Shown here: piece after piece, positions 12,744-37,930 of the stretch
Numbering within the stretch: position 1 is the first letter of the stretch
Layout of the letters: each line of letters begins with the position of its first letter
From: Caldithrix sp.
GTDB taxonomy: Bacteria > Calditrichota > Calditrichia > Calditrichales > Calditrichaceae
Direction of reading: 5' to 3'
Assembly (NCBI GenBank): GCA_020720405.1
Contig: DYOS01000002.1
Span: 47,483-89,911, forward strand
DNA length: 42,429 bases
Notes under the pieces: model-generated
The model's input: the letters and a program-made list of their open reading frames with translations, nothing else
Database searches by the model: none
What the model was told of the DNA's origin: nothing
Position numbers and translations under genes: made by a program

Positions 12744-14606
12744 TCAGGTTCGATTAATGATCATATTCTCAGGAGCAAGGATTTTATCAAGATTTTCTAC
12801 CTTCATCAGCTTTTTCTCAAGAACCAGTTCATACACACCAACATTGCGCTGCAAGGCCTCCCTGGCCAGGTCTGTACAAATTTCATAGCCAAGATGTGGC
12901 ACAAGCGCGGTAACCAGACCGATGCTCCATTCAACCATACCTCTCATACGCTCTTCATTGGCCGTAATCCCGACAATACAGCGGTGCATAAACGTGCTCA
13001 TGCCATTGCTGAGCATATCAATGGATTCGAATAAGCAATGGGCAATAACCGGTTCCATTACATTCAATTCTAATTGCCCAGCTTCAGCAGCCAGGGTCAC
13101 CGTCAGATCATTTCCAATAACCCGGAAGGCAATCTGGTTGACTACTTCGGGTATTACCGGATTAACTTTCCCCGGCATAATCGATGATCCCGGCTGCATG
13201 GGCGGCAGATTGATCTCATTAAAACCTGTCCGCGGCCCAGAAGAAAGCAGGCGCAAATCATTGGCTATCTTCGATAATTTAACGGCCAGACGTTTCAGGG
13301 CCGAGGAATACATGACAAACGAACCCGTATCCTGTGTCGCTTCAACCAGGTTTGTGGCTAATTTCAGATCCAGCCCGGAAATATCGCGCAGATGACGGAT
13401 CACTATTTCCGGGTAATCCGGATGGGCATTTATCCCGGTACCGATTGCCGTTCCGCCCATATTCACTTCCAGGAATAATTTTACATTCTCTTCCAACCGC
13501 TCAATTTCTTCGGCAAGCGTTGTGGCATAAGCACCGAATTCCTGACCGAGAGTCATGGGTACAGCATCCTGTAACTGGGTGCGACCCATTTTAAGCATTG
13601 ACGAAAAACTACTTTCCTTCAACCGGAAAGCAGAGATTAACTCACGCAGTACGGAAACCAGACGGGCGTTACTATTGATCAGGGCTATCTTCAGCGCTGT
13701 AGGATAAGCATCGTTGGTTGATTGAGACAGGTTTACATGGTTATTCGGATGGCAATATTTATACTCACCACGTTCGTAGCCCAGAATTTCCAGAGCCCGG
13801 TTAGCGATAACCTCATTAGCGTTCATATTGGTTGAAGTCCCTGCTCCACCCTGTATCATATCGACCACAAACTGGGTATGCAGTTTCCCATTCAGGATTT
13901 CAGAGCAGGCCTTACTAATCGCTTCGAGAATCGGCTGGCCTAACAAGCCAAGTTCAGCATTGGCCTGGGCGGCAGCCATTTTAACAATAGCCAGGGCCTC
14001 CACCAGTCGTGGATATAAAGATAGCGGAATGCCGGTGATGTTAAAATTTTCCAGGGCACGCAGGGTTTGAATACCGTAATAGTATTCATGAGGCACTTCC
14101 CGATCACCCAGCAAATCATGCTCAGACCGGGTGCGACCGGAAATATACTGTGCACCAGCATTGACCACCCGGGTGCTGGTCTGACGCATGCGCCGGGAAA
14201 TAACCCGGGCCGCCCGGCTCAGTACCTTTCCGACCAGCGCCGGTTGATTGCTGGCCAGATTTTGAAATTCATGATTATCTATGGCCAGAATTCTGACCGG
14301 AAGCATGGCTCTGGCGGATGTGGAATGCGGGTAGTCCTCCATTAATCCGCCTTCACCCAGAAAATCATACCTGCCGAAGAAGGCCAGTCGTTTTTCATCG
14401 CCGGTCGGTGTGGTTTTTAAAAGCTCAATTTCTCCATCGTAGATAAGGTATAAATATTTTCTGGCCGTGTTCTCCCGAAACAGAAACTCATTCGGTTCAA
14501 GTGACAGTTCAACCGCATTTCCGGAAATAGAAATATACTCTGCCTCAGTCAGATCCTTAAATAATTCAATATGCTTTAAAAATGACTGTACCTGTTGGAT
14601 ATCCAT
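12744..14606 (-). CDS. aspA: Aspartate ammonia-lyase with N-terminal cyclic-nucleotide-binding-like domain
   Basis: This 620-residue protein joins two units. Residues about 8-135 form a cNMP-binding-like domain (FLFRENTARKYLYLIYDGEI, FLGEGGLMEDYPHS). Residues about 157-615 are a full-length aspartase: DLLGDREVPHEYYYGIQTLR, GAGTSTNMNANEVIANRALE, LSQSTNDAYPT and the fumarase/aspartase signature GSSIMPGKVN at 473-482, whose serines form the catalytic loop. Aspartase interconverts L-aspartate with fumarate and ammonia. In the phosphate-binding cassette the Arg that contacts the nucleotide phosphate in CRP-like domains appears as His94, so nucleotide binding may be altered or lost. ATG 14606 has a GGAG site. 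It is transcribed alone, divergent from the HAD gene. Fumarase is unlikely, because the N-terminal lyase motif is aspartase-type. Confidence 0.9.
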   Translation of the reverse strand: MDIQQVQSFLKHIELFKDLTEAEYISISGNAVELSLEPNEFLFRENTARKYLYLIYDGEIELLKTTPTGDEKRLAFFGRYDFLGEGGLMEDYPHSTSARAMLPVRILAIDNHEFQNLASNQPALVGKVLSRAARVISRRMRQTSTRVVNAGAQYISGRTRSEHDLLGDREVPHEYYYGIQTLRALENFNITGIPLSLYPRLVEALAIVKMAAAQANAELGLLGQPILEAISKACSEILNGKLHTQFVVDMIQGGAGTSTNMNANEVIANRALEILGYERGEYKYCHPNNHVNLSQSTNDAYPTALKIALINSNARLVSVLRELISAFRLKESSFSSMLKMGRTQLQDAVPMTLGQEFGAYATTLAEEIERLEENVKLFLEVNMGGTAIGTGINAHPDYPEIVIRHLRDISGLDLKLATNLVEATQDTGSFVMYSSALKRLAVKLSKIANDLRLLSSGPRTGFNEINLPPMQPGSSIMPGKVNPVIPEVVNQIAFRVIGNDLTVTLAAEAGQLELNVMEPVIAHCLFESIDMLSNGMSTFMHRCIVGITANEERMRGMVEWSIGLVTALVPHLGYEICTDLAREALQRNVGVYELVLEKKLMKVENLDKILAPENMIINRT

Positions 14607-15766: not shown

Positions 15767-16231
15767 ATGACCAGCTTTATTAAACGCGAATACGACTATG
15801 CCATCCGCATTATGGCTTATCTGGCTGGTAAAACCGGGCAAGGACCAATTCCGGTTTCCAGACTTTCCAGGACCTTATTCCTCTCAAAAAATTTTATCAA
15901 TAAAATTATATTTCAACTCCGCCAGGCCGGCCTGATTGAGTCAGTGCAGGGTAAATATGGCGGTCTCTCCCTCCATGGGAAACCAGAAGATATTTCTATT
16001 TTCGATATTTTATCCGCTATGGGTTTCCAGGAATCTCTAAACGAGTGTACAAAAAATCATGATATTTGCCCGCTTAGCGGCTTCTGCCTGATTCATACCT
16101 TTTTTAAGGAGCAGGAAGATATTCTATTTGGACAATTTAGAAACAAAAAACTAAGCGAACTGATTATCCGCGATCAGGATTTGAAAACAATAAACAAAGA
16201 ATTACCCGGAGGAAGTCTATGGATGCCTTAA
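15767..16231 (+). CDS. Rrf2-family transcriptional regulator, probable Fe-S sensor
   Basis: This 154-residue protein has an Rrf2 winged-helix DNA-binding domain (REYDYAIRIMAYLAG, then LSKNFINKIIFQLRQAGLIE and QGKYGGLSL). The C-terminal part carries three cysteines, Cys94, Cys101 and Cys107 (spacing C-x6-C-x5-C), close to the cluster-binding arrangement of IscR and NsrR. The family senses iron-sulfur status, nitric oxide or redox state. Its stop codon overlaps the cydA start by 13 bases, and the cydA ribosome binding site lies within its last codons, so it is cotranscribed and translationally coupled with cydA. It most likely controls cytochrome bd expression in response to NO or oxygen. The signal sensed cannot be decided from sequence. 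Confidence 0.87.
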   Translation: MTSFIKREYDYAIRIMAYLAGKTGQGPIPVSRLSRTLFLSKNFINKIIFQLRQAGLIESVQGKYGGLSLHGKPEDISIFDILSAMGFQESLNECTKNHDICPLSGFCLIHTFFKEQEDILFGQFRNKKLSELIIRDQDLKTINKELPGGSLWMP

Positions 16232-17559
16232 TTCTTGCCCGGTGGCAGTTTGCCATCACAACGGTTTATCATTTTTTCTTTGTTCCGCTCACCCTCGGCT
16301 TATCTATCTTTCTGGCCATTACCGAGACAATTTATGTCCGCACCGGAAATGAGATGTACAAGCGGATGACCAAATTCTGGGGTCATCTTTTTGTTATTAA
16401 TTTTGCCATCGGGGTTGCCACCGGAATAGTCCAGGAGTTCCAGTTTGGCATGAACTGGTCAGAATATTCCCGGTTTGTCGGGGATATTTTTGGCGCCCCG
16501 CTGGCTATCGAAGCACTGCTGGCATTCTTTCTTGAATCCACCTTTCTTGGAATCTGGATATTCGGTTGGGATAAAATATCCAAAAAACTGCACGCGGCAA
16601 CCATTTGGGCGGTCGCCATCGGTTCGAATATTTCCGCCTTTTGGATTCTTGTAGCCAATTCCTGGATGCAGGAACCGGTTGGCTTTGCCATTGAAAATGG
16701 ACGGGCCGTGATGACTGATTTTTTTGCTTTGCTGACAAATGCTCATCTCTGGGTGCAGTTTCCCCATGTTATCACCGGCGGGATGGCAACAGCGGCATTT
16801 TTTGTTCTCGGAATCAGTGCTTTTCATATTTTCCGTAAATCAGAAGATCAGGAAGTTTATATAAACTCTTTCAAAATTGCTTCTGTTTATGGTTTTATCG
16901 CTACGGTTCTGGTTACCCTGATCGGTCATAATCAGATGGTTCACATGATTCAAACCCAACCCATGAAAGTGGCCGCAGCCGAGGCTCTGTGGGATACGGA
17001 AAATCCGGCCAGTTTATCCATTTTCACCATTGGTGATGAACAAAACAGGAAAGATATCTTCGCTATCCGCATACCGCGGTTACTCTCTATCCTTGCTTAT
17101 AACTCACTGGATGGTGAAATAAAAGGTATAAATCAATTACAGGATGAATATGAGGTCAAATATGGGCCGGGCGACTACGTTCCTTCGGTAATAATGTCTT
17201 ACTGGATGTTCCGGATGATGGTTGGGGCCGGCACGATAATGCTGCTGGTGGCTATTTATGCATTGTTTCTGACCATTAAATCCAAATTCGAATTAAAGCC
17301 CTGGGCCCGACTGCTTATTTTTTATTCCATCGCCCTGCCGTTTATCGCCAATTCCACGGGCTGGATTTTAGCGGAGCTTGGCCGCCAGCCCTGGATTGTT
17401 CAGGGTGTATTAAAAACGGAACAGGCCGTTTCTAAATCAGCAGGCTGGGGTGAAGTTCTGAGTTCGCTTATCCTTTTCACCTTGCTTTATGCCGTATTAA
17501 TGGTTGCTGATGTCTTTTTGCTCAAGAAATATGCTGTCGCCGGAACGAGTAAACATTAA
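16219..17559 (+). CDS. cydA: Cytochrome bd quinol oxidase subunit I, short Q-loop type
   Basis: This 446-residue membrane protein is the catalytic subunit of cytochrome bd, which oxidises quinol and reduces O2 to water. Seen directly: His18 in VYHFFFVPLTLG (high-spin heme axial ligand), Glu98 and Glu106 in IEALLAFFLEST (proton path), His183 in QFPHVITGG (b558 ligand region) and the ELGRQPW motif with Glu386. The distance from the N-terminus to GRQPW is about 60 residues shorter than in E. coli CydA, which places it with the S-type (short Q-loop) enzymes. ATG 16219 has a GGAGGA site inside the upstream Rrf2 gene. cydB follows after 16 bases. Confidence 0.96.
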   Translation: MDALILARWQFAITTVYHFFFVPLTLGLSIFLAITETIYVRTGNEMYKRMTKFWGHLFVINFAIGVATGIVQEFQFGMNWSEYSRFVGDIFGAPLAIEALLAFFLESTFLGIWIFGWDKISKKLHAATIWAVAIGSNISAFWILVANSWMQEPVGFAIENGRAVMTDFFALLTNAHLWVQFPHVITGGMATAAFFVLGISAFHIFRKSEDQEVYINSFKIASVYGFIATVLVTLIGHNQMVHMIQTQPMKVAAAEALWDTENPASLSIFTIGDEQNRKDIFAIRIPRLLSILAYNSLDGEIKGINQLQDEYEVKYGPGDYVPSVIMSYWMFRMMVGAGTIMLLVAIYALFLTIKSKFELKPWARLLIFYSIALPFIANSTGWILAELGRQPWIVQGVLKTEQAVSKSAGWGEVLSSLILFTLLYAVLMVADVFLLKKYAVAGTSKH

Positions 17560-17575
17560 CAATTAGGAGGCCAAA

Positions 17576-18589
17576 ATGGATTTGAATATTTTATGGTTTA
17601 TTCTGATAGCTGTACTTTTTACCGGCTATTTTTTCCTGGAAGGATTCGATTTTGGGGTTGGTATACTCATGCCATTTCTGGGCAGAGACGATCACAACCG
17701 GAGATTGATAATCAATACCATTGGTCCATTCTGGGATGCCAATGAGGTATGGCTGCTGACTGCCGGCGGTGCAATTTTCGCCGCATTCCCCAATTGGTAT
17801 GCCACTTTGTTCAGTGGATTTTACCTGGCCTTGCTACTTATGCTCGTTGCCTTAATCCTCAGGGCAGTAGCTTTTGAATTCCGAAGTAAACACGACGATC
17901 CGAAATGGCGCTCCATCTGGGACTGGATGATTTTTTTCGGTTCATTTATACCGGCCCTGCTCTGGGGTGTAGCTCTGGCCAACCTTTTGCGCGGTGTACC
18001 TATCGATGAAACGATGACTTACCAGGGCGGATTCTTTAACCTGCTCAACCCCTATGCCCTTGTTGGCGGACTTGCTTCGGTAAGTCTTTTTACCCTTCAT
18101 GGCGCAATATTTCTTAATCTGAAAACATCAGATGCACTTCGTGAATCTGCTTTAGCAGCTGCCAAAAAAATCTGGCTGCCGGCCACCATTCTGCTTTTTG
18201 TTTTTGTCATCTACACCTATCTCGAAACCGATATTTACAGCAGATTGGGTGTAAACCCCGGTGTGGTGCCAATCTTTGCAGGATTGTCGCTTTTTTTTAG
18301 CATCTTTCTGCTTAGAAATAACAAGAGCGGCTGGGCGTTTATTTTGACCAGCATTTCCATTGTCTTTTCTACTATCACTATTTTTATGGCGCTGTTTCCG
18401 CGGGTTATGGTCAGCAGCCTGAACCCGGACTGGAGTCTGACGATTTACAACGCTTCTTCCACTGCTTATACACTCAAAACCATGAGCATCGTCGCGTTGA
18501 TTTTTGTGCCAATAGTTTTAATTTACCAGGCATGGACTTACTGGATTTTTCGTAAAAGAATTTCCAGCCAGTCAGAATTAACCTATTAA
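17576..18589 (+). CDS. cydB: Cytochrome bd quinol oxidase subunit II
   Basis: This 337-residue polytopic protein has the CydB N-terminus (YFFLEGFDFGVGILMPFLGR) and the motif GPFWDANEVWLLTAGGAIFA. It packs against CydA to form the oxidase core in the cytoplasmic membrane. Length is normal for the short-form enzymes. A strong AGGAGG site precedes ATG 17576. A terminator hairpin directly after the stop (18613-18648) ends the Rrf2-cydA-cydB transcript. Confidence 0.96.
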   Translation: MDLNILWFILIAVLFTGYFFLEGFDFGVGILMPFLGRDDHNRRLIINTIGPFWDANEVWLLTAGGAIFAAFPNWYATLFSGFYLALLLMLVALILRAVAFEFRSKHDDPKWRSIWDWMIFFGSFIPALLWGVALANLLRGVPIDETMTYQGGFFNLLNPYALVGGLASVSLFTLHGAIFLNLKTSDALRESALAAAKKIWLPATILLFVFVIYTYLETDIYSRLGVNPGVVPIFAGLSLFFSIFLLRNNKSGWAFILTSISIVFSTITIFMALFPRVMVSSLNPDWSLTIYNASSTAYTLKTMSIVALIFVPIVLIYQAWTYWIFRKRISSQSELTY

Positions 18590-18612
18590 ATTTTTTGTTT
18601 CACCAATTTTGA

Positions 18613-18648
18613 ACACCCTGGACCGGAGCATCGGTTCAGGGTGTTTTT
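18613..18648 (+). terminator. Rho-independent terminator after cydB
   Basis: A 12-bp stem (ACACCCTGGACC paired with GGTTCAGGGTGT, including one G-T pair) with an eight-base loop is followed by TTTTT. It separates cydAB from cydDC, so the transporter genes depend on readthrough or a promoter in the short interval before 18673. Confidence 0.85.
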
Positions 18649-18672
18649 CAACTAAAACAACCTGCTTTTTGT

Positions 18673-20409
18673 ATGAAGATTGATCTCCGGCTTTTTCAAT
18701 TTGCCAGAAAACAGGGCAATCTCCTCGTATACTCTGTTATTTCAGAAATTCTTAAAACCGCTCTGACCTTATGGTTTGCCTGGCAACTTAGTGTTGTGCT
18801 TGATAAAGTTTTTCTACGGGAAGCAGGACTGGCTGAAATCAGCGGAAATCTCCGGCTGCTACTGCTCATTTCTTTGGGCCGCCTCCTGCTTGGAATTTTG
18901 TCTTCGTTCAGTGCAATTTCTCTGGCCGGCAAGATAAAAAATAAGCTGCGCAGCTTGATCATTGAGAAAGTCATGGCCAGCGGGATGATCGGCCTGGCAC
19001 AGGAAGAAAGCGCAGAAATCAGTGTTACTTTAAACACGGGCGTTGAAAAACTTGATGCCTGGTTTTCACAATTCCTGCCGCAGATATTCTTCTCAGCCCT
19101 GATCCCTTTATTTATCTTGTTTCTCGTCTTTCCCATTGATCTGCTTTCCGGGGCAGTCTTTTTATTTACTGCTCCGATTATTCCCATTTTTATGGCCTTG
19201 ATTGGTAGCCTCACCGAAAGCAAAACCCGCCGGCAATGGCAGGTATTAAGCCGGATGAGCAGCCATTTTCTGGATATCCTGCAAGGTTTGACAACTTTGA
19301 AAATTCTAGGCAGGAGTAAAGATAAAATAAATGAGATTTTTCAGATAACTGATTTGTTCCGGCAGTCTACGATGGATGTACTTAAAATCGCCTTTTTATC
19401 GGCGCTGGTACTCGAGATTGCTGCCACGGTCAGTACGGCAGTTATTGCTGTAGAAATTGGACTGAGATTACTGTACGATAAAATTACTTTTCAGCCGGCC
19501 TTATTTATACTGATTCTCGCACCGGAATTTTATCAGCCGTTCCGGCAACTGGGGGCCAGGTTTCATGCCTCGGTTGAAGGCGTATCCGTAATGAACAGAA
19601 TTCAGGAAATTCTTGATAAACCGGGTTTGAACCATTCACTACCATCACTAAAGCAAATCGACCTTAAACAACCTCCTGAAATCAGAATCGAAAATCTTGG
19701 TTTTACTTATCCGGATCGGGAAAAACCGGCGATCTGCAAATTGAATCTGCATCTTCCAGCGGGTAAAATAACCGCATTAACCGGCCCGAGTGGTGCCGGG
19801 AAAACCACGCTAATGAACCTGATTTGCCGGCTGCTGAATCCGCAAACCGGAAAAATAAGAGTAGATGGTACAGACCTGCTGGCGATGGATGAAAAGGACT
19901 ATCTGAGATTGCTGAGTTGGCTGCCTCAAAAACCTTATATTTTAAATGCCTCGATTGAAGAAAATATGCGTCTGGCAAAACCAAAGGCAACTCAGCCGGA
20001 ACTGAACAAAGCAGCTAATTCTGCACGTTTGCTTTCTTTTATCGAATCTCTGCCGGAGCAATGGCAGACCCGGGTTGGAGAACAAGGGACCCGCCTCAGT
20101 GGTGGTGAGATCCAGCGTTTGGCTCTGGCCCGGGCTTTTTTAAAAAATGCACCCATTCTGATTCTTGATGAACCGACTGCAGCTCTTGATCCCGAACTTG
20201 AATCCGAAATCTCTGCAACAATCCGGAATCTAAGCCGGGAAAAGACAACCCTGATTATCGCCCATCGCCTGAATACCATAAAATCAGCCGATCAGGTAGT
20301 GGTGATGGAACAAGGCCGGATTATTCAAACCGGTCCGCCGGCGGAACTTTTCCGGCAGGCGGGTGCCCTGGCCCTGATGCTGACCAGGCTGAAAGATACA
20401 ACTTTATGA
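18673..20409 (+). CDS. cydD: ABC transporter subunit CydD (thiol/heme export for cytochrome bd assembly)
   Basis: This 578-residue protein has an N-terminal ABC transmembrane domain of six helices (residues about 15-310) and a C-terminal ATPase. The ATPase shows Walker A GPSGAGKTT, the signature LSGGEIQRLALARAF and Walker B ILILDEPTAA. With the next gene it forms the heterodimeric CydDC exporter, reported to move cysteine/glutathione or act on heme and needed for mature cytochrome bd. Assignment rests on its place behind cydAB and the paired, equal-length half transporters. ATG 18673 lacks a clear ribosome binding site. Its 3' end overlaps cydC by four bases (ATGA). Confidence 0.88.
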   Translation: MKIDLRLFQFARKQGNLLVYSVISEILKTALTLWFAWQLSVVLDKVFLREAGLAEISGNLRLLLLISLGRLLLGILSSFSAISLAGKIKNKLRSLIIEKVMASGMIGLAQEESAEISVTLNTGVEKLDAWFSQFLPQIFFSALIPLFILFLVFPIDLLSGAVFLFTAPIIPIFMALIGSLTESKTRRQWQVLSRMSSHFLDILQGLTTLKILGRSKDKINEIFQITDLFRQSTMDVLKIAFLSALVLEIAATVSTAVIAVEIGLRLLYDKITFQPALFILILAPEFYQPFRQLGARFHASVEGVSVMNRIQEILDKPGLNHSLPSLKQIDLKQPPEIRIENLGFTYPDREKPAICKLNLHLPAGKITALTGPSGAGKTTLMNLICRLLNPQTGKIRVDGTDLLAMDEKDYLRLLSWLPQKPYILNASIEENMRLAKPKATQPELNKAANSARLLSFIESLPEQWQTRVGEQGTRLSGGEIQRLALARAFLKNAPILILDEPTAALDPELESEISATIRNLSREKTTLIIAHRLNTIKSADQVVVMEQGRIIQTGPPAELFRQAGALALMLTRLKDTTL

Positions 20410-22145
20410 GAAATATCATCCGCTTACTAAAAATGGCTTCCCCCTTCCGCAGAGGGATGCTTTTAGCAGGTCTTTTAGCATTGTTAACCATCACTGGTGC
20501 AGCCGGGCTGATGATGACTTCCGCCTTTCTTATCGCCATGGCTGCCTTGCATCCCTCCATCGCCGAACTGCAGATCGGCATTGTCGGAGTCCGGTTTTTT
20601 GGTATCAGCCGGGGAATTTTCCGCTACCTGGAGAGACTGGTTTCTCATGAAGCAACCTTCCGCTTACTGGCCGGATTACGGGTTTGGTTTTATGAGAGAT
20701 TGGAACCGCTGGCTCCGGCCCGTCTGCTCTATTACCGCTCCGCTGATTTACTGACCCGGATCATAGGCGATATTGAAGTACTCGAGCATCTCTACATCCG
20801 GGTTGCCGGGCCGATCGCCATTGCAATACTGACTCCATTTTTTTATAGCTGGATTTTATGGTTCATTCACCCTGGATTAATAATCCCGTTCCTCCTGCCA
20901 TACCTGCTTTCCGGTTTTATTCTCCCCTGGTTATTTTATTATTTGAGTAAAATTCTGAATCAAAAAGAGACCGCTTTGCAGACACAGGTTCAAATCCGCA
21001 GCATTGATTTATTACAAGGCTTCGCCGAACTCAAAATCCACGGTTGTCTGGATGAGTACCAAAGAGAGTTGCTGGATGCCCAAACCCGGCTAACAAGTAT
21101 TAAATCATGGTTAGCCCGGTTGGCCTCATTTCAGGAAAATATGATTGGTTTTGGGTTGAATGCGGCCGTACTTGGTCAGATTCTTATAGCTGTTCCGCTG
21201 CTGCGGAATGGTGAATTGAGCGGTGTGCAGTTAACAGTGGTTGTGCTCGGAACGATGGCCGTATTTGAAGCAGTTTTGTCTATGCCGGGCGCCTTCACCC
21301 ATTTTCGGGCCAATATCTTATCTGCCGGTCGCCTTTTTGAAATCATCGATACACCAACGCCTCCGGCCACTAAGGCTGAGGTTTTTATCGAACCGGTACA
21401 ACAACTTTGTTTTGAACAGGTAACGTTCCGCTACGCCGATAATCAAAACCCGGCTCTGGATAATTTTTCTTTCACCCTGCAGAAGGGACAGGATTTGTAC
21501 ATTCTCGGTCACAGTGGTGCCGGTAAATCAACGATCATCAATCTGCTGATGCGGTTCTGGGTTCCAGAGACCGGGCATATTTCCCTTAACAGCCGCGATA
21601 TCTCCGGTATCTCAGCCCAGAATCTGACCAGCCGGATTGGTATCATGTCCCAGCGGCCGTACTTGTTCAGCGCCACAATACGCCAGAATCTTGAACTTGC
21701 TTCATTGGATGGTACAGCGATGGAAAACCTGATCCAGGCCTGCCATATGGCTGGCATCGGGCAGAAGATCGAAAGTCTGCCCAAGAAATACGAGACGTGG
21801 ACCGGTGAGCAGGGTCAGCATTTCAGCGCCGGAGAACAGCAACGCCTGGCCCTGGCTATGATTCTGCTGCGCAAACCAGAAATATTGATTTTAGACGAGG
21901 CAACTTCCGCACTGGATGCAGAAACCGAACATTTTGTACTGAAAAGACTGCGGGCAGACAATCCGCACAGAATTATCATTTTTATTACGCATAAAATAAA
22001 TCTGATACCTGCGGACGGAAAAGTGCTGATTCTGCATCACGGGCAAACCATCGAACAAGGTGTATTTGCTGAACTCAGGCAAAATCCCGATTCGGTTCTG
22101 AACCGCATGTATACAAACCAACAACAGGACGAGATAATAAATTAA
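20406..22145 (+). CDS. cydC: ABC transporter subunit CydC
   Basis: This 579-residue half transporter has an N-terminal membrane domain with the CydC-like segment RFFGISRGIFRYLERLVSHE and a C-terminal ATPase (Walker A GHSGAGKST, Walker B ILILDEATSALD). Its ABC signature reads FSAGEQQRLA in place of LSGGQ, while the partner CydD keeps LSGGE. The heterodimer may therefore have one degenerate ATP site, as in many asymmetric exporters. Translation is coupled to cydD through the ATGA overlap. It is the last gene of the block; the next gene is convergent. Confidence 0.9.
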   Translation: MRNIIRLLKMASPFRRGMLLAGLLALLTITGAAGLMMTSAFLIAMAALHPSIAELQIGIVGVRFFGISRGIFRYLERLVSHEATFRLLAGLRVWFYERLEPLAPARLLYYRSADLLTRIIGDIEVLEHLYIRVAGPIAIAILTPFFYSWILWFIHPGLIIPFLLPYLLSGFILPWLFYYLSKILNQKETALQTQVQIRSIDLLQGFAELKIHGCLDEYQRELLDAQTRLTSIKSWLARLASFQENMIGFGLNAAVLGQILIAVPLLRNGELSGVQLTVVVLGTMAVFEAVLSMPGAFTHFRANILSAGRLFEIIDTPTPPATKAEVFIEPVQQLCFEQVTFRYADNQNPALDNFSFTLQKGQDLYILGHSGAGKSTIINLLMRFWVPETGHISLNSRDISGISAQNLTSRIGIMSQRPYLFSATIRQNLELASLDGTAMENLIQACHMAGIGQKIESLPKKYETWTGEQGQHFSAGEQQRLALAMILLRKPEILILDEATSALDAETEHFVLKRLRADNPHRIIIFITHKINLIPADGKVLILHHGQTIEQGVFAELRQNPDSVLNRMYTNQQQDEIIN

Positions 22146-33012: not shown

Positions 33013-33576
33013 TTATTTCATATAGAGAATAGCATCCTTATACTCGGACATCAGGCGGCGCCATTCCATTTTAAACCAGGGTGTATAAAAATCCGGATTC
33101 AGATCCAATTGTTTGGTCAGTTCGTCAATGGCAATATATTTCCAGGCTTTTATCTCGGTGGAATTTACGACCGGTTCATCGTTGCTGCGGCCGATGTAAA
33201 CGGAACAAAGCTCGTTTTCGGAACCGGCCTCACCATACCTGGCCTTATATTGGAAACGGTAAGTGTAAACTAATCGTGTTCTCAATCCCAGTTCTTCAAA
33301 GAGTCTTCTCTCCGTAGCCTGTTCATAACTTTCTCCTTTTCGCGGGTGACTGCAGCAACTGTTCGACCAGAAGCCGGGCCAAAGCATTTTCCCGAATGCC
33401 CGTTGCTGCACAAGGAGCTCATTCTTTGAATTAAAAATAAAAATGGAGAAAGCGCGGTGCAGAATGCCATCATGAATATGACATTCCAGTTTATCCTCAT
33501 AACCCACAATTTCATCAATCGGGTTAACCAAAATCAGTTTCTCATTATCAAAGGATACAATCTGATTGGAATTCAT
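33013..33576 (-). CDS. idi: Isopentenyl-diphosphate delta-isomerase, type I (Nudix)
   Basis: This 187-residue enzyme interconverts IPP and DMAPP. Visible active-site features of the type I family are His33 and His40 (ECHIHDGILHRAFS), the catalytic Cys75 in WSNSCCSHP with His77, the Nudix-like box around EQATERRLFEELG, and Glu120/Glu122 in GSENELC. Length is normal for bacterial type I enzymes. ATG 33576 has an AGGGA site and lies 13 bases after the HMGR-MVK stop, so it is the last gene of the mevalonate operon. Many mevalonate-pathway bacteria use the flavin-dependent type II enzyme instead; this operon pairs the pathway with the Nudix form. Confidence 0.94.
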   Translation of the reverse strand: MNSNQIVSFDNEKLILVNPIDEIVGYEDKLECHIHDGILHRAFSIFIFNSKNELLVQQRAFGKMLWPGFWSNSCCSHPRKGESYEQATERRLFEELGLRTRLVYTYRFQYKARYGEAGSENELCSVYIGRSNDEPVVNSTEIKAWKYIAIDELTKQLDLNPDFYTPWFKMEWRRLMSEYKDAILYMK

Positions 33577-33589
33577 TTCTTTTCCCTAA

Positions 33590-35842
33590 CTATTTTAGAT
33601 CTGTAATTAGTGCCTGGTAGCCGGCATTTTTTATAGCCCTGGCAACTTCTTCGGCATTGTCCGGGCAAAGAGCGATAATTGCACCGCCGCCGCCGCCGCC
33701 GGTTAATTTGGCGCCGAGGGCCCCGTTCTCCCGGGCAATGGCAATCAGTTCTTCAATCTCCCGGCCAGAAACCTGCAGGGCATTCAGATAACCCTGATTA
33801 ATATTCATCAGCTCACCCAACTGCGGCAGATTATTTTCATTAATGGCCTTTATAGCCTGAATCGTCAAGCGGTCAATTTCCTTGAAAATGCGGTTATAGA
33901 GGTCTTTATTCCTCTCCCAGGCCTGGCGCACCCGGGCTACCATTCCTGCGGTAAGACTTTCGATCCAGGTTAAACCGATAACGATGCGGATTGGTTTGGG
34001 TGGTGTGATTGGCTCAATTTCGGGTGGATTACCTTTTTTGAAACGCAGGAATTGACCGTAGGTGGCCAGTGTGTTATCGATACCCGAAGCAGTGCCATGA
34101 ACTATTTTTTCCGACTCAAAGGCCAGGGCCGAGATGGCAGCATTATCCAATTGCAGCGAAAAATATTCCGACAAGGCGCGGATGATAGCCACCGCCAGCG
34201 AAGCGGATCCGCCCAGCCCCATGGCCCGCGGTACATTCGGGAAAACCTCGATCTCAATATTTTGATTATCAACCCCAAGTGATTTTAAGATCAGGTTTAG
34301 TGATTGAAAAATTGAATACTTGTATTCGCGGTCCGGGTGCACCTGCTCTTCCACGCCCCAGCGCGGAATAATCAAATGCACACCCTCTTTTGAAGCGGAG
34401 GCAATTTTGGCTTCCATGGCCAAAGGTATTGGCGCGGCCAGGGCATTGGCACCATAAACCACAGCATGTTCGCCGAATAATATAACCTTGCCATAACCGC
34501 TGGGCATCCCGGATATTTTTGGTTCGAGATATATCTCTGCCCTTTTCTTGTCCTCACCGGTTTCGATGTTTTTGATAATTTCCTGGGCTTTCCAGATTTT
34601 TATTTCACCGGAGGCAATCACTTTTTCAACGACCGTTTCAAATATTTCCGGACCGGCGCCGGCAGCCATAACCACGCTCCGGGCATGAAGACTCATGTGG
34701 CCACGTTGGATACCTTCGGTAGCCAGCGCTTTCAGTGCCGACATATTCTGGGCCAGACCAACCGCGCCGAGCAGTTCAGCCAGCTCCCTCGCCGATTGGA
34801 TATTGAGAATATGATGGACAATGGGCACGGTTGGGTTACTTTCCAACGGTCCGCCCACCGTTCCCACCCGAACCGGCAGTTCGATTTGTCCAATCAAATC
34901 ACCGTTCTCCGCTTTTTCCCATAGGGTCAGTGCCGTGTATTTTCCGCCGCGGGCGGCATAGGCATGGGCTGCTGCTTCCTGAGCGCGCCAGTCATTTCCG
35001 GTGGCAATAACAACCGGATCTATGCCATTCATTATGCCTTTATTATGGGTTGCGGCGCGGTATGGATCGGCTTTGGCAAATTCGTTGGCCAGGATAATAC
35101 CATCACGCACCTCATCGCCGGAGTAATCGCCGCTGTTCAGAAGATGAACCGGAATCCGGCAGGTGGCGCGGACCAGGGAGCGGTCGGCCAGATTAGACAG
35201 GATGCGCAGAAAAACCCGCCCCCCGGTTAGTTTTTCGACCAGGGGAGCAACGCCTTCGCACATGGAATTGACCAGATTGGCGCCCATGGCATTTTGCGTA
35301 TCAACCAATAGATGGATAATAACCATATCATTGTAGGCCGCCGTTGCCGGAAGAAGATGTACTTCCAGATCTCGCGCTCCCCCGCCCCGGGCAATCATAT
35401 TGGGATGAAGACTGTTGGCTAAATTAATAATCTGATCTTTGCTCTGAACAAGAATCTGCAGGGCATGGGCCGGGCTTTTCACATCCATCAACTGTATCTG
35501 GCCAATCAGAATAGATTCACTGCTCCCGGCTGTAAATCCACCGGCTTCGCGAACTATTTTTGCGGCTGAACTCACCGCAGCGATAATAGAAGGTTCTTCA
35601 ACTACCATTGGCACGATATAATCCTTGCCATTAACCTGAAAATTAAGACCTAATCCCAGTGGTAAACCAAATACGCCGATAACATTTTCGACCATTTTAT
35701 CCGAGTCTTCGGCCCGGAGCAGATTCCGGCCGTTTTTCAGCAGCAGAAAGTCTTCATCCGAAAGATGCTCGGCGGTACGCAGCAGATTTAAGCGCTCGGC
35801 GACGCTGTATTTGTAAAAACCCGGAATTCTTGAACTGATCAT
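33590..35842 (-). CDS. Class II HMG-CoA reductase fused to mevalonate kinase
   Basis: This 750-residue protein is a single open frame with two enzymes. Residues 1 to about 425 are a class II HMG-CoA reductase. Catalytic Glu83 (VVEEPS), Lys268 (HNKGIMNGID), Asp284 (TGNDWRA) and His382 (QRGHMSLH) fall within one residue of their Pseudomonas mevalonii numbers. The Asp in GGGARDLEVH, linked in that enzyme to NADH use, is kept. Residues about 445-750 are a mevalonate kinase: GHMP motifs SGYGKVILFGEHAVVYG, PRAMGLGGSASLAVA and KLTGGGGGGA, with catalytic Asp589 in HGTASGIDN. The linker is about 20 residues. ATG 35842 has AGGA sites and matches the family start, better than TTG 35869. The product would turn HMG-CoA into mevalonate-5-phosphate without releasing mevalonate from the chain. 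Confidence 0.94.
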   Translation of the reverse strand: MISSRIPGFYKYSVAERLNLLRTAEHLSDEDFLLLKNGRNLLRAEDSDKMVENVIGVFGLPLGLGLNFQVNGKDYIVPMVVEEPSIIAAVSSAAKIVREAGGFTAGSSESILIGQIQLMDVKSPAHALQILVQSKDQIINLANSLHPNMIARGGGARDLEVHLLPATAAYNDMVIIHLLVDTQNAMGANLVNSMCEGVAPLVEKLTGGRVFLRILSNLADRSLVRATCRIPVHLLNSGDYSGDEVRDGIILANEFAKADPYRAATHNKGIMNGIDPVVIATGNDWRAQEAAAHAYAARGGKYTALTLWEKAENGDLIGQIELPVRVGTVGGPLESNPTVPIVHHILNIQSARELAELLGAVGLAQNMSALKALATEGIQRGHMSLHARSVVMAAGAGPEIFETVVEKVIASGEIKIWKAQEIIKNIETGEDKKRAEIYLEPKISGMPSGYGKVILFGEHAVVYGANALAAPIPLAMEAKIASASKEGVHLIIPRWGVEEQVHPDREYKYSIFQSLNLILKSLGVDNQNIEIEVFPNVPRAMGLGGSASLAVAIIRALSEYFSLQLDNAAISALAFESEKIVHGTASGIDNTLATYGQFLRFKKGNPPEIEPITPPKPIRIVIGLTWIESLTAGMVARVRQAWERNKDLYNRIFKEIDRLTIQAIKAINENNLPQLGELMNINQGYLNALQVSGREIEELIAIARENGALGAKLTGGGGGGAIIALCPDNAEEVARAIKNAGYQALITDLK

Positions 35843-35856
35843 ATTCCTGTCCTGTT

Positions 35857-36927
35857 TTAGAAATGACAAATCACACCACTTTCAGCAATGGCAGCCGGAA
35901 GCGGTGGAAAATTAAGGGAGGTCAGTTCCTTAAACAATGGACGGACTTCCTGCCCTTTTCTATAGAATATCGTTCCAATATCTCCGCCGCCGGCTCCGGA
36001 AGGTTTGTAAAAACAACTGTGTTTCCTGGCTATAGCATAAATTGCCTGGTGGGCTGGAGAAATAACCGGCAGAGCACTGTTCCGTGATAATTGCTCCGCT
36101 AATTGGTAAAAAGAATCCACCTCATTCATAAATTGATCTGTTTGATTGGCACCGAAAAACCCGACGGCCCGGCCTGAACAGTTAATCATCGCTGAAAGCG
36201 TGCTGTTAAATAAATCCGGCTGCAGTTCTTTCAGCTCATAGAAACCGGAAACCATATCCCGGGTTGAGGCGCTGTGACCGGTATAGACCACGGCAATTTC
36301 CAGATCATCGGGCATTTTGATAGACTTAATCCGCCCGGTTATTTCCTTTTCTGATCTGGCAAAATTGTATTGAAGAACCCCGCCGTGACTGCATGCGGCA
36401 ACATCAATTCCACTGCCGCTCCGGCCCTGGGCAGCATGATGCACGCGGAGCGAAATATTAAATAAATCGTTCGCCGGCAGATCTTTTTTGAACAATTTTC
36501 CAAGTCCGGCAATCAGCGCTACGGTCAATGAGGCGCTTGAGCCAAAGCCGAGTTTAACCGGCTGACCCGGAACATAAAAGGCATCCGTATTAAAACTTGC
36601 CATCCAGCCGCCGCACGGTTTTTCAAGCGGCACCTGCAGCTCGTCCAGGGCTGCTTTGAGTAATAAGGCAATGAAATTCATTTTATGCCGGGTCTGTGCC
36701 TCAAGCGCAGGATCAAACCGGATATGGCCCTGCCGGGTTCGGATACAGGGCAAATCAATAATATGCATTTGCGGGCTGCTGAGCAGAATTGTATTTGCAT
36801 CCGGCTGGGTACCGAAAGTAACAACAGAGCGCCGGTCAACCGCAGCGACGAGGGCGTCTGCACCTTCAAGCACGGCATATTCACCAATCAGGATCATTTT
36901 TCCGGGAGCAGAGACACTAAAATTCAA
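35857..36927 (-). CDS. mvaK2: Phosphomevalonate kinase (GHMP family)
   Basis: This 356-residue enzyme phosphorylates mevalonate-5-phosphate to the diphosphate. GHMP motifs are present in order: SAPGKMILIGEYAVLEGADA at the N-terminus, the phosphate loop KLGFGSSASLTVAL, GRSGSGIDVAACSHGGVLQY and the C-terminal PSGAGGGDIG. The segment GIDVAACSHGG is the form found in ERG8/MvaK2 enzymes rather than in mevalonate kinase. The start is TTG 36927, one base after the mvaD stop; GGAG inside the end of mvaD is at the right distance, and no ATG exists before the first motif. The HMGR-MVK start lies 14 bases after the stop. Confidence 0.92.
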   Translation of the reverse strand: MNFSVSAPGKMILIGEYAVLEGADALVAAVDRRSVVTFGTQPDANTILLSSPQMHIIDLPCIRTRQGHIRFDPALEAQTRHKMNFIALLLKAALDELQVPLEKPCGGWMASFNTDAFYVPGQPVKLGFGSSASLTVALIAGLGKLFKKDLPANDLFNISLRVHHAAQGRSGSGIDVAACSHGGVLQYNFARSEKEITGRIKSIKMPDDLEIAVVYTGHSASTRDMVSGFYELKELQPDLFNSTLSAMINCSGRAVGFFGANQTDQFMNEVDSFYQLAEQLSRNSALPVISPAHQAIYAIARKHSCFYKPSGAGGGDIGTIFYRKGQEVRPLFKELTSLNFPPLPAAIAESGVICHF

Positions 36928-36928
36928 C

Positions 36929-37930
36929 TCAGGGCTCCACTATCCGCACGCCGGGTCCAGGTCTGGTTATAATTATTTCTTCCACAGCACTATCATTTTG
37001 GAATATTTGAAGCAGTGCCGGTGCATCCTTTTCCCGGCACAAAATTTTTACCTGCGGTCCGGCATCAATAGTAAAATAGGCTTCAATACCGCTGGCCCTG
37101 ATTTCACGGACCTGCTGTAATAAATGCAGCGTGGCCGGACTCCAGTAGATAATACCAGGATTGGCCGACATGGCCAGGGCATGCATTTTGAGACAACTGA
37201 ATTCTGCAAGATGGCCGATTCTTGTAAAATCCGCATCCTGCAAAGCCTGCCGCATCGCCGCTAAATCCGCTTCAGCGGAATCAGACCAGGCCTGGTAATA
37301 GGGCGAGGTATCACGGGTCAGATTCATCCCCTCGGTTGAACCGGTTTTCTTTTTTTGCCGCGATGTTACCAGAATCAGGACATTTATATTTAGAGCTGTC
37401 TCCGTTAAAATTTGTTCGGCGAAGGCATCACTTCCGTCCGGCAACTGGCCGCGATGCATTTCAACAAACCCGCCAAACAAAGAGCGCGCCGCCGAACCGC
37501 TGCCCTGGCGGGCCAGAATACTGACTTCACGCAGCGCAAGATCAAGTCCGGCGGCTTTGAGACCAGCATAAGCCAGGGCGGCAAAGGCGGAGGCTGAAGA
37601 AGCCAGTCCGGCCGCGGTTGGGAAATTATTAGCAGTTATTACTTCGGCTCCGGGCAGAATTTGACCGGTAATTTCTTTATAAATAAGGCGGATGCGGTCA
37701 AGAAAACGACTGACTCTAAGCCGCTCCGGTTCATCAGCCTGAAGATTGTTCAACTGCACCGAGTCAGCCGGGCGACCCGGTTCGAAACGGACGGAAGTGT
37801 CCGTAAAAAGGGTGTCCAGCGTGACGGATATTGAACCTACGGCCGGCAGATTAAGAAGGCTATCCCGTTTCCCCCAGTATTTGATCAGAGCGATATTTGA
37901 ATGAGCGATAACCCGGCAGTGGTTGTCCAT
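36929..37930 (-). CDS. mvaD: Diphosphomevalonate decarboxylase
   Basis: This 333-residue enzyme makes IPP from mevalonate-5-diphosphate with ATP. The N-terminus AHSNIALIKYWGKRD, the phosphate loop PTAAGLASSASAFAALA (104-120), Arg149 in SGSAARSLFGG and the catalytic Asp289 in TIDAGPQVK are all present, which separates a true decarboxylase from mevalonate-3-kinase relatives that have lost the Asp. It is the first gene of the operon mvaD - mvaK2 - HMGR/MVK - idi. ATG 37930 has an AGGGAA site. The order, with the decarboxylase first and the reductase fused to the kinase, gives all steps from HMG-CoA to DMAPP in four genes. Confidence 0.95.
   Translation of the reverse strand: MDNHCRVIAHSNIALIKYWGKRDSLLNLPAVGSISVTLDTLFTDTSVRFEPGRPADSVQLNNLQADEPERLRVSRFLDRIRLIYKEITGQILPGAEVITANNFPTAAGLASSASAFAALAYAGLKAAGLDLALREVSILARQGSGSAARSLFGGFVEMHRGQLPDGSDAFAEQILTETALNINVLILVTSRQKKKTGSTEGMNLTRDTSPYYQAWSDSAEADLAAMRQALQDADFTRIGHLAEFSCLKMHALAMSANPGIIYWSPATLHLLQQVREIRASGIEAYFTIDAGPQVKILCREKDAPALLQIFQNDSAVEEIIITRPGPGVRIVEP

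Follow-up and report, generated by a model that had tools for sequence, protein, structure and literature searches.

A one-frame fusion of class II HMG-CoA reductase and mevalonate kinase, a probable biosynthetic enzyme of Calditrichota and some Gammaproteobacteria

Introduction

Does a Caldithrix bacterium really carry HMG-CoA reductase (HMGR) and mevalonate kinase (MVK), the enzymes of two consecutive steps of the mevalonate pathway, which supplies isoprenoid lipid precursors, in a single polypeptide, and if so, in which direction would this polypeptide work and what would the join be good for? The question is raised by a gene in the 42,429-nucleotide stretch of DNA analysed here (the window; Caldithrix sp., assembly GCA_020720405.1, contig DYOS01000002.1, positions 47,483 to 89,911 of the forward strand). 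An initial annotation had read the gene as a singular fusion of enzymes that are otherwise separate, and its operon as biosynthetic.

HMGR is the rate-limiting step and the next step is feedback-regulated, both according to the accessible text of a 2026 article on bacterial isoprenoid pathways (PMC13001223), so that the fusion joins these two steps in one chain. We found no published description of an HMGR and mevalonate kinase fusion among the papers listed in our literature searches, which covered few subscription journals, and an earlier note is therefore possible; in the accessible main text of the same article (PMC13001223), the sole match to 'fus' is IspDF.

Results

The fusion gene and its domains

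The gene and its parts are as follows (residue numbers of the 750-aa form):

33590..35842, minus strand: HMGR-MVK fusion gene, 750 aa plus stop, from ATG
34571..35836, minus strand: class II HMG-CoA reductase domain, residues about 3-424 (PF00368, TIGR00532, alignment to 6dio/1qax)
34571..34729, minus strand: reductase C-terminal flap, residues about 372-424, holding the catalytic H382 (position by alignment)
34502..34570, minus strand: linker, residues about 425-447, charged and variable
33593..34501, minus strand: mevalonate kinase domain, residues about 448-750, with GHMP motifs 1-3 and D589 (TIGR00549, PF00288, PF08544)

The ATG start is the one used in the initial annotation, which gives no strand; it is preceded by AGGACAGGA. 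An alternative TTG start, 27 bases upstream, gives an open reading frame of 759 aa (33590-35869), which is the form searched as P0001. In the 759-aa form, the Pfam domain HMG-CoA_red covers residues 23-396 (358 bits), and the GHMP kinase N and C domains follow C-terminal to it; the Pfam and NCBIfam profiles find no thiolase domain in P0001. Both family cut-offs are passed in the single minus-strand frame, by TIGR00532 (class II HMG-CoA reductase) with 419 bits against 260 and by TIGR00549 (mevalonate kinase) with 252.5 bits against 163, which bears out the claim that two consecutive steps lie in one polypeptide. The reductase part aligns with 6dio and 1qax through residue 433 of the 759-aa form. 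Among the 38 PDB sequences matching P0001, the reductases fall inside residues 11-436 and the kinases inside 449-756, and none of the 38 spans both halves. A stop or frameshift between residues 425 and 447 was looked for in the sequence and none is present. The fusion in one frame is real, not an assembly fault.

A structure model of the fusion (mean pLDDT 82.5, pTM 0.54) confirms, at the level of prediction, both the class II HMGR and the MVK folds: its best fold matches are 6dio, 9dcp, 9dpg and 1qax for the reductase and 2hfu, 2hfs and 6mde for the kinase. Three flap helices are modelled at 379-393, 401-411 and 416-427. With a pTM of 0.54, the model does not fix the relative placing of the domains.

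Distribution and origin

When one genome per species was scanned, 33 loci in named genomes came up; at 31 the match extends over both domains, and one of the 31 (L022) has a frame break. Identity to the fusion was 68-72% in Calditrichota/KSB1 and 56-60% in Gammaproteobacteria (Dyella, Rhodanobacter, Nevskia, Wenzhouxiangella and others); copies at 59-60% also occur in two bins, possibly misassigned, that bear the names Verrucomicrobia and Eremiobacteraeota.

Within Calditrichota, 39 of 40 genomes gave a match, and 32 carry a one-frame fusion over nearly the whole query. In three of the 32 (G012, G019 and G031) the match contains one stop, yet open frames of 749-751 aa hold both domains. The frame is also continuous in the single-contig genomes G001 and G039. 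Fragments were found in six genomes: in G009, G020 and G027 a fragment spans the junction, in G036 the two halves lie on two contigs, and G011 and G032 show the kinase only and the reductase only, respectively. In G011, G020, G032 and G036 a fragment starts no more than 5 bases from a contig end. A reductase match was absent in two of the 40: G023 gave only matches of the kinase-like sort, and G035 no match at all.

The class of Dyella nitratireducens, which we take to be Gammaproteobacteria in GTDB, was sampled with 369 genomes, at most two candidates per genome being scored. Thirty genomes matched: nine with the full fusion (the Dyella centre included), one with a junction-crossing fragment, 19 with the reductase only and one with a kinase-like match only. 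None of the 46 matching genomes out of 201 Chloroflexota (at most five candidates per genome scored) had a match across both halves. The fusion is thus not singular, as had been supposed, but a conserved trait of Calditrichota (32/40) and some Gammaproteobacteria (9/369); it is old and conserved, a natural design of most Calditrichota and some Gammaproteobacteria examined.

Further candidates were set aside. Plasmids yielded 37 matching records, none with 80% of the query; among the matches listed (20 of the 37), the plasmid records hold the reductase only. The long open frames of L088 and L146 turned out to be separate genes. At L088:1471-3591, in a genome of the Dyella class, HMGR has a gene of its own, and 18 bases behind it stands a further ORF that by eye resembles a GHMP kinase, so that the two are unfused neighbours.

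For the phylogeny the sets were thinned to 49 fusions in the single-half trees and 38 in the joint tree; the tree program flags long branches, which among the fusions include L081. The reductase tree groups all fusions in a single clade (SH-aLRT 97; 49 fusions and 49 unfused), as does the kinase tree (100; 49 fusions and 21 unfused), the latter being a weak test because all 21 unfused kinases are from Chloroflexota. The joint tree, rooted on ten Chloroflexota pairs, again gives a fusion clade (100/100). Calditrichota are one clade (100/99) nested among the gammaproteobacterial fusions, with weak inner forks (88-89), and a single clade of the gammaproteobacterial fusions is not rejected by an AU test (p 0.31; 19 rows versus 29). 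Given this p value and the weak inner forks, we claim no direction of transfer. These trees would be most simply read as a single fusion event, with the operon transferred between phyla at least once.

Operon and pathway context

The fusion is the third gene of a tight minus-strand operon in the order mvaD-pmk-fusion-idi, whose other members are:

36929..37930, minus strand: mvaD, diphosphomevalonate decarboxylase, first operon gene (TIGR01240, 288 bits, over cut-off)
35857..36927, minus strand: GHMP kinase, probable phosphomevalonate kinase by its operon place (TIGR01220, 101 bits, and TIGR00549, 103 bits, both under cut-off)
33013..33576, minus strand: idi, isopentenyl-diphosphate isomerase type I (TIGR02150 and NF002995, over cut-off)

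The operon had been given as mvaD, mvaK2 and idi. The names mvaD and idi hold, while the gene called mvaK2 stays under the TIGR01220 and TIGR00549 cut-offs, phosphomevalonate kinase (PMK) being its best reading. The arrangement recurs: upstream of the fusion, mvaD is found on the same strand at 28 of 33 Calditrichota loci and 30 of 37 gammaproteobacterial loci, and idi follows downstream at 31 and 35, respectively, counts in which three locus pairs look like one genome reached twice. Some loci lacking mvaD or idi are cut by contig or locus ends. Neither mvaD nor PMK lies within 1,500 bases upstream in L048, L060 and L062, and no idi was found downstream in L004 (6,000 bases) or L050 (1,500 bases); these exceptions may be real. 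In Dyella nitratireducens (L010:410-11228), the fusion operon sits between hopanoid genes, one flank holding HpnJ and HpnI and the other HpnH and a gene that resembles HpnB but stays just under cut-off; such flanks fit isoprenoid synthesis.

Elsewhere in the window, positions 15767-22145 hold genes for cytochrome bd oxidase subunits I and II and for the CydD and CydC exporter, behind an Rrf2-family regulator, and positions 12744-14606 encode a fumarase/lyase-family enzyme with an N-terminal cyclic-nucleotide-binding domain, a combination not known to be common.

In the window genome (97% complete, 266 contigs), no IspH match was found, and no mevalonate kinase other than the fusion passes the cut-off; eight genomes were checked for such kinases, and in all six that carry the fusion it is the only one. 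A second contig of the window genome (L068:4227-6874) holds in a row an archaeal-type HMG-CoA synthase (HMGS; TIGR00748, 495 bits against 353), a thiolase (subfamily model, 430 bits against 420) and a third ORF, which we take to be DUF35-like; the latter matches the BbsA model, a thiolase-partner subunit, with 59.5 bits, under the cut-off of 250. Candidates were thus found for AACT, HMGS, HMGR, MVK, PMK, MVD and Idi, the PMK below the TIGR01220 cut-off and the thiolase assigned by operon and subfamily model only. The biosynthetic role that had been claimed is therefore probable, in view of the mva operon, the lack of an IspH match, the sole MVK over cut-off and the HMGS elsewhere in the genome.

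In the wider sample, single absences of IspH or HMGS are weak because the genomes are partly incomplete. Archaeal-type HMGS is over cut-off in 29 of 40 Calditrichota, and 36 of the 40 have no IspH match, while four have IspH. Among 30 fusion genomes reached through loci, 27 gave no IspH match. An HMGS-like match at E 1e-10 or better was obtained in 23 of 30 gammaproteobacterial fusion genomes, and in no case did it exceed the TIGR01835 cut-off; among the seven others, G051 and G060 have IspH, and G041, G055 and G057 have neither. The presence of the operon in several Gammaproteobacteria where IspH, the usual MEP marker, was not found suggests that the core pathway has been replaced there. G051 (L018) is a Dyella and G060 (L029) a Rhodanobacter, both with IspH and the fusion operon and with no HMGS match at E 1e-10. 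A Dyella genome (L180:1432-2964) encodes a 510-aa HMG-CoA synthase homologue that stays far below the NCBIfam synthase cut-offs (160 bits against a cut-off of 360 for the best model), possibly a divergent synthase.

Catalytic residues and cofactor helix

The catalytic residues named at the outset, E83, K268, D284, H382 and D589, are exactly numbered on the 750-aa form. In a 31-row alignment the four reductase residues are invariant and D589 nearly so, two rows being reductases without kinase. Among 68 aligned fusions, E83 is kept in 66/66 and K268 and D284 in 67/67 with data, and H382 and D589 in 68/68. Identical domains had been collapsed to one row each and copies of the window gene taken out before this alignment was made; it still holds nine pairs at 98% identity or more.

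The cofactor of the reductase can be approached through one helix:

35387..35407, minus strand: cofactor helix H146-R152 (HPNMIAR), by alignment to 1qax, near the NADPH motif (H/Y)xSxxxR

The accessible text of a preprint (PMC13370337) assigns Dx(V/L)xxxL to NADH and (H/Y)xSxxxR to NADPH. In the NADH-using enzyme of P. mevalonii (1qax), this helix reads D146xL148xxxL152 (our numbering, from the 1qax alignment). The fusions have HxXxxxR in 67/67 with data, where X is N, K, Q, R, H or A and never the S of the NADPH motif. H and R occur together in none of 49 unfused relatives (R alone in 15, H in two). NADPH is the likely cofactor of the fusion reductase, since HxXxxxR is near (H/Y)xSxxxR, though the middle position differs.

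Linker and fusion-specific tryptophans

The linker is present in 68/68 aligned fusions, with 17-33 residues over the counted interval, and the mean share of the commonest residue is 0.32 there, against 0.78 in the reductase body, 0.83 in the flap and 0.72 in the kinase. Two residues that mark the fusions lie on either side of it:

34592..34594, minus strand: W417, last flap helix; 68/68 fusions, 0/49 unfused reductases (10 gapped there)
34358..34360, minus strand: W495 of the kinase (IPRWGVE); 68/68 fusions, 0/21 unfused kinases, all Chloroflexota (one gapped there)

Both are fixed while 600 of 759 positions vary, and conservation of the last flap helix is higher among fusions, at 0.82 against 0.63 in the 36 nearer unfused reductases. 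However, the same rule yields 15 fusion-specific positions in the reductase and 23 in the kinase, so that W417 and W495 are a selection among them, and shared ancestry alone could produce such marks because the fusions are one clade. That the two tryptophans are part of docking surfaces is a possible reading of the alignment.

Discussion

We propose, with a probability of about 0.9, that the product of the gene is bifunctional and acts biosynthetically in the mevalonate pathway. At the N-terminus, the class II reductase would convert HMG-CoA into mevalonate, with NADPH as the probable cofactor; at the C-terminus of the same chain, the GHMP kinase would phosphorylate this mevalonate to mevalonate 5-phosphate, which the neighbouring kinase, decarboxylase and isomerase would take on to IPP and DMAPP. 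The HMG-CoA would be supplied by the archaeal-type thiolase/HMG-CoA synthase module elsewhere in the genome.

Class II reductases had been presented as best known from mevalonate breakdown. They are not chiefly catabolic, however: the enzymes of Staphylococcus, Enterococcus and Listeria serve biosynthesis. Their cofactor use is treated in the accessible text of PMC13370337. We consider it very improbable that the reductase half of the fusion runs in reverse, in mevalonate breakdown, with the fusion as a branch-point enzyme that divides mevalonate between a degradative and a synthetic route. The best reductase model, TIGR00532, does bear the NCBIfam name 'degradative', the closest solved relatives by sequence are the Delftia and P. 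mevalonii enzymes, which prefer or need NADH according to the same preprint (PMC13370337), and in two fusion genomes that have IspH, an HMG-CoA synthase match is missing. However, the operon is biosynthetic, most carriers lack an IspH match, Calditrichota have HMGS, and the cofactor helix reads HxXxxxR and not DxLxxxL. This is a warning for annotation, as the curated reductase model that the protein meets best is named 'degradative' and the genome context contradicts this name.

A different objection concerns the chain itself, which could be cut in the linker after translation so that the two enzymes act apart and the fusion only equalises expression. The linker is the least conserved part (0.32 against 0.72-0.83 elsewhere), as would be expected in this case, but it is retained in all 68 fusions, no cleavage motif is evident by eye, and fusion-specific invariant residues stand on both sides of it; we hold cleavage to be improbable. 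As for two genes merged through an assembly error, no point was found in support, and 31 of 33 loci in named genomes carry the fusion (L022 with its frame break), as do 32 of 40 Calditrichota, isolate and single-contig genomes among them. This recurrence across assemblies refutes an artefact, whose probability we regard as practically negligible.

What could a bifunctional biosynthetic enzyme gain from the join? According to the accessible text of PMC10070635, the C-terminal flap of class II reductases closes for catalysis and opens to release products and cofactor. As the kinase is tied directly behind the flap, it stays within linker reach of its substrate's exit; sitting on this mobile element, it would be held near the place where mevalonate leaves, a geometric argument that is no proof of channelling. 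Channelling of mevalonate and a fixed enzyme ratio, both predicted for the fusion, are plausible. The benefit may be proximity, or merely equal dosage and co-assembly, which would be enough to account for the selection of the fusion.

We can also imagine, as a rather unlikely elaboration, that the kinase docks on the flap through fusion-specific conserved surfaces, with R494/W495 on its own side and W417/K418 on the last helix of the flap; opening of the flap would then hand over mevalonate, and the state of the kinase would feed back on the flap. If this were true, then together with an archaeal-type thiolase/HMGS/DUF35-like complex, the first four steps in Calditrichota, from acetyl-CoA to mevalonate 5-phosphate, would be carried out by only two coupled assemblies. 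The join has been kept by evolution across one phylum and part of another, and it offers a natural case for tests of mevalonate channelling and a ready part for isoprenoid engineering.

The two halves resemble known enzymes. Like the class II HMGRs of P. mevalonii (1qax), Delftia (6dio) and S. pneumoniae (5wpj), with which it shares 44-52% identity in structure alignments, the reductase has the catalytic Glu/Lys/Asp/His and the C-terminal flap fold; it differs from them by the kinase behind it and by W417 and K418 at the flap end, and its cofactor helix is unlike that of 1qax. The kinase has the GHMP fold and motifs of the mevalonate kinases of L. major (2hfs) and M. mazei (4hac/6mde), at 31-33% identity, but, unlike separate mevalonate kinases, it is tethered to a reductase and carries R494 and W495, which are missing in the 21 Chloroflexota kinases compared.

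The archaeal thiolase/HMG-CoA synthase/DUF35 complex is reportedly credited with channelling. A gene set of this kind is present in the window genome; the archaeal assembly, whose make-up is described in PMC6996347, is a multi-subunit complex for the two preceding steps, and the fusion is another protein. Fusion inside the mevalonate pathway is already known from MvaE of Enterococcus, an acetoacetyl-CoA thiolase/HMGR fusion that contains a class II HMGR, according to the accessible text of PMC10070635. In MvaE, however, the HMGR is the C-terminal half and its partner acts two steps before, whereas in the fusion of the window the partner is the next enzyme, placed behind the flap.
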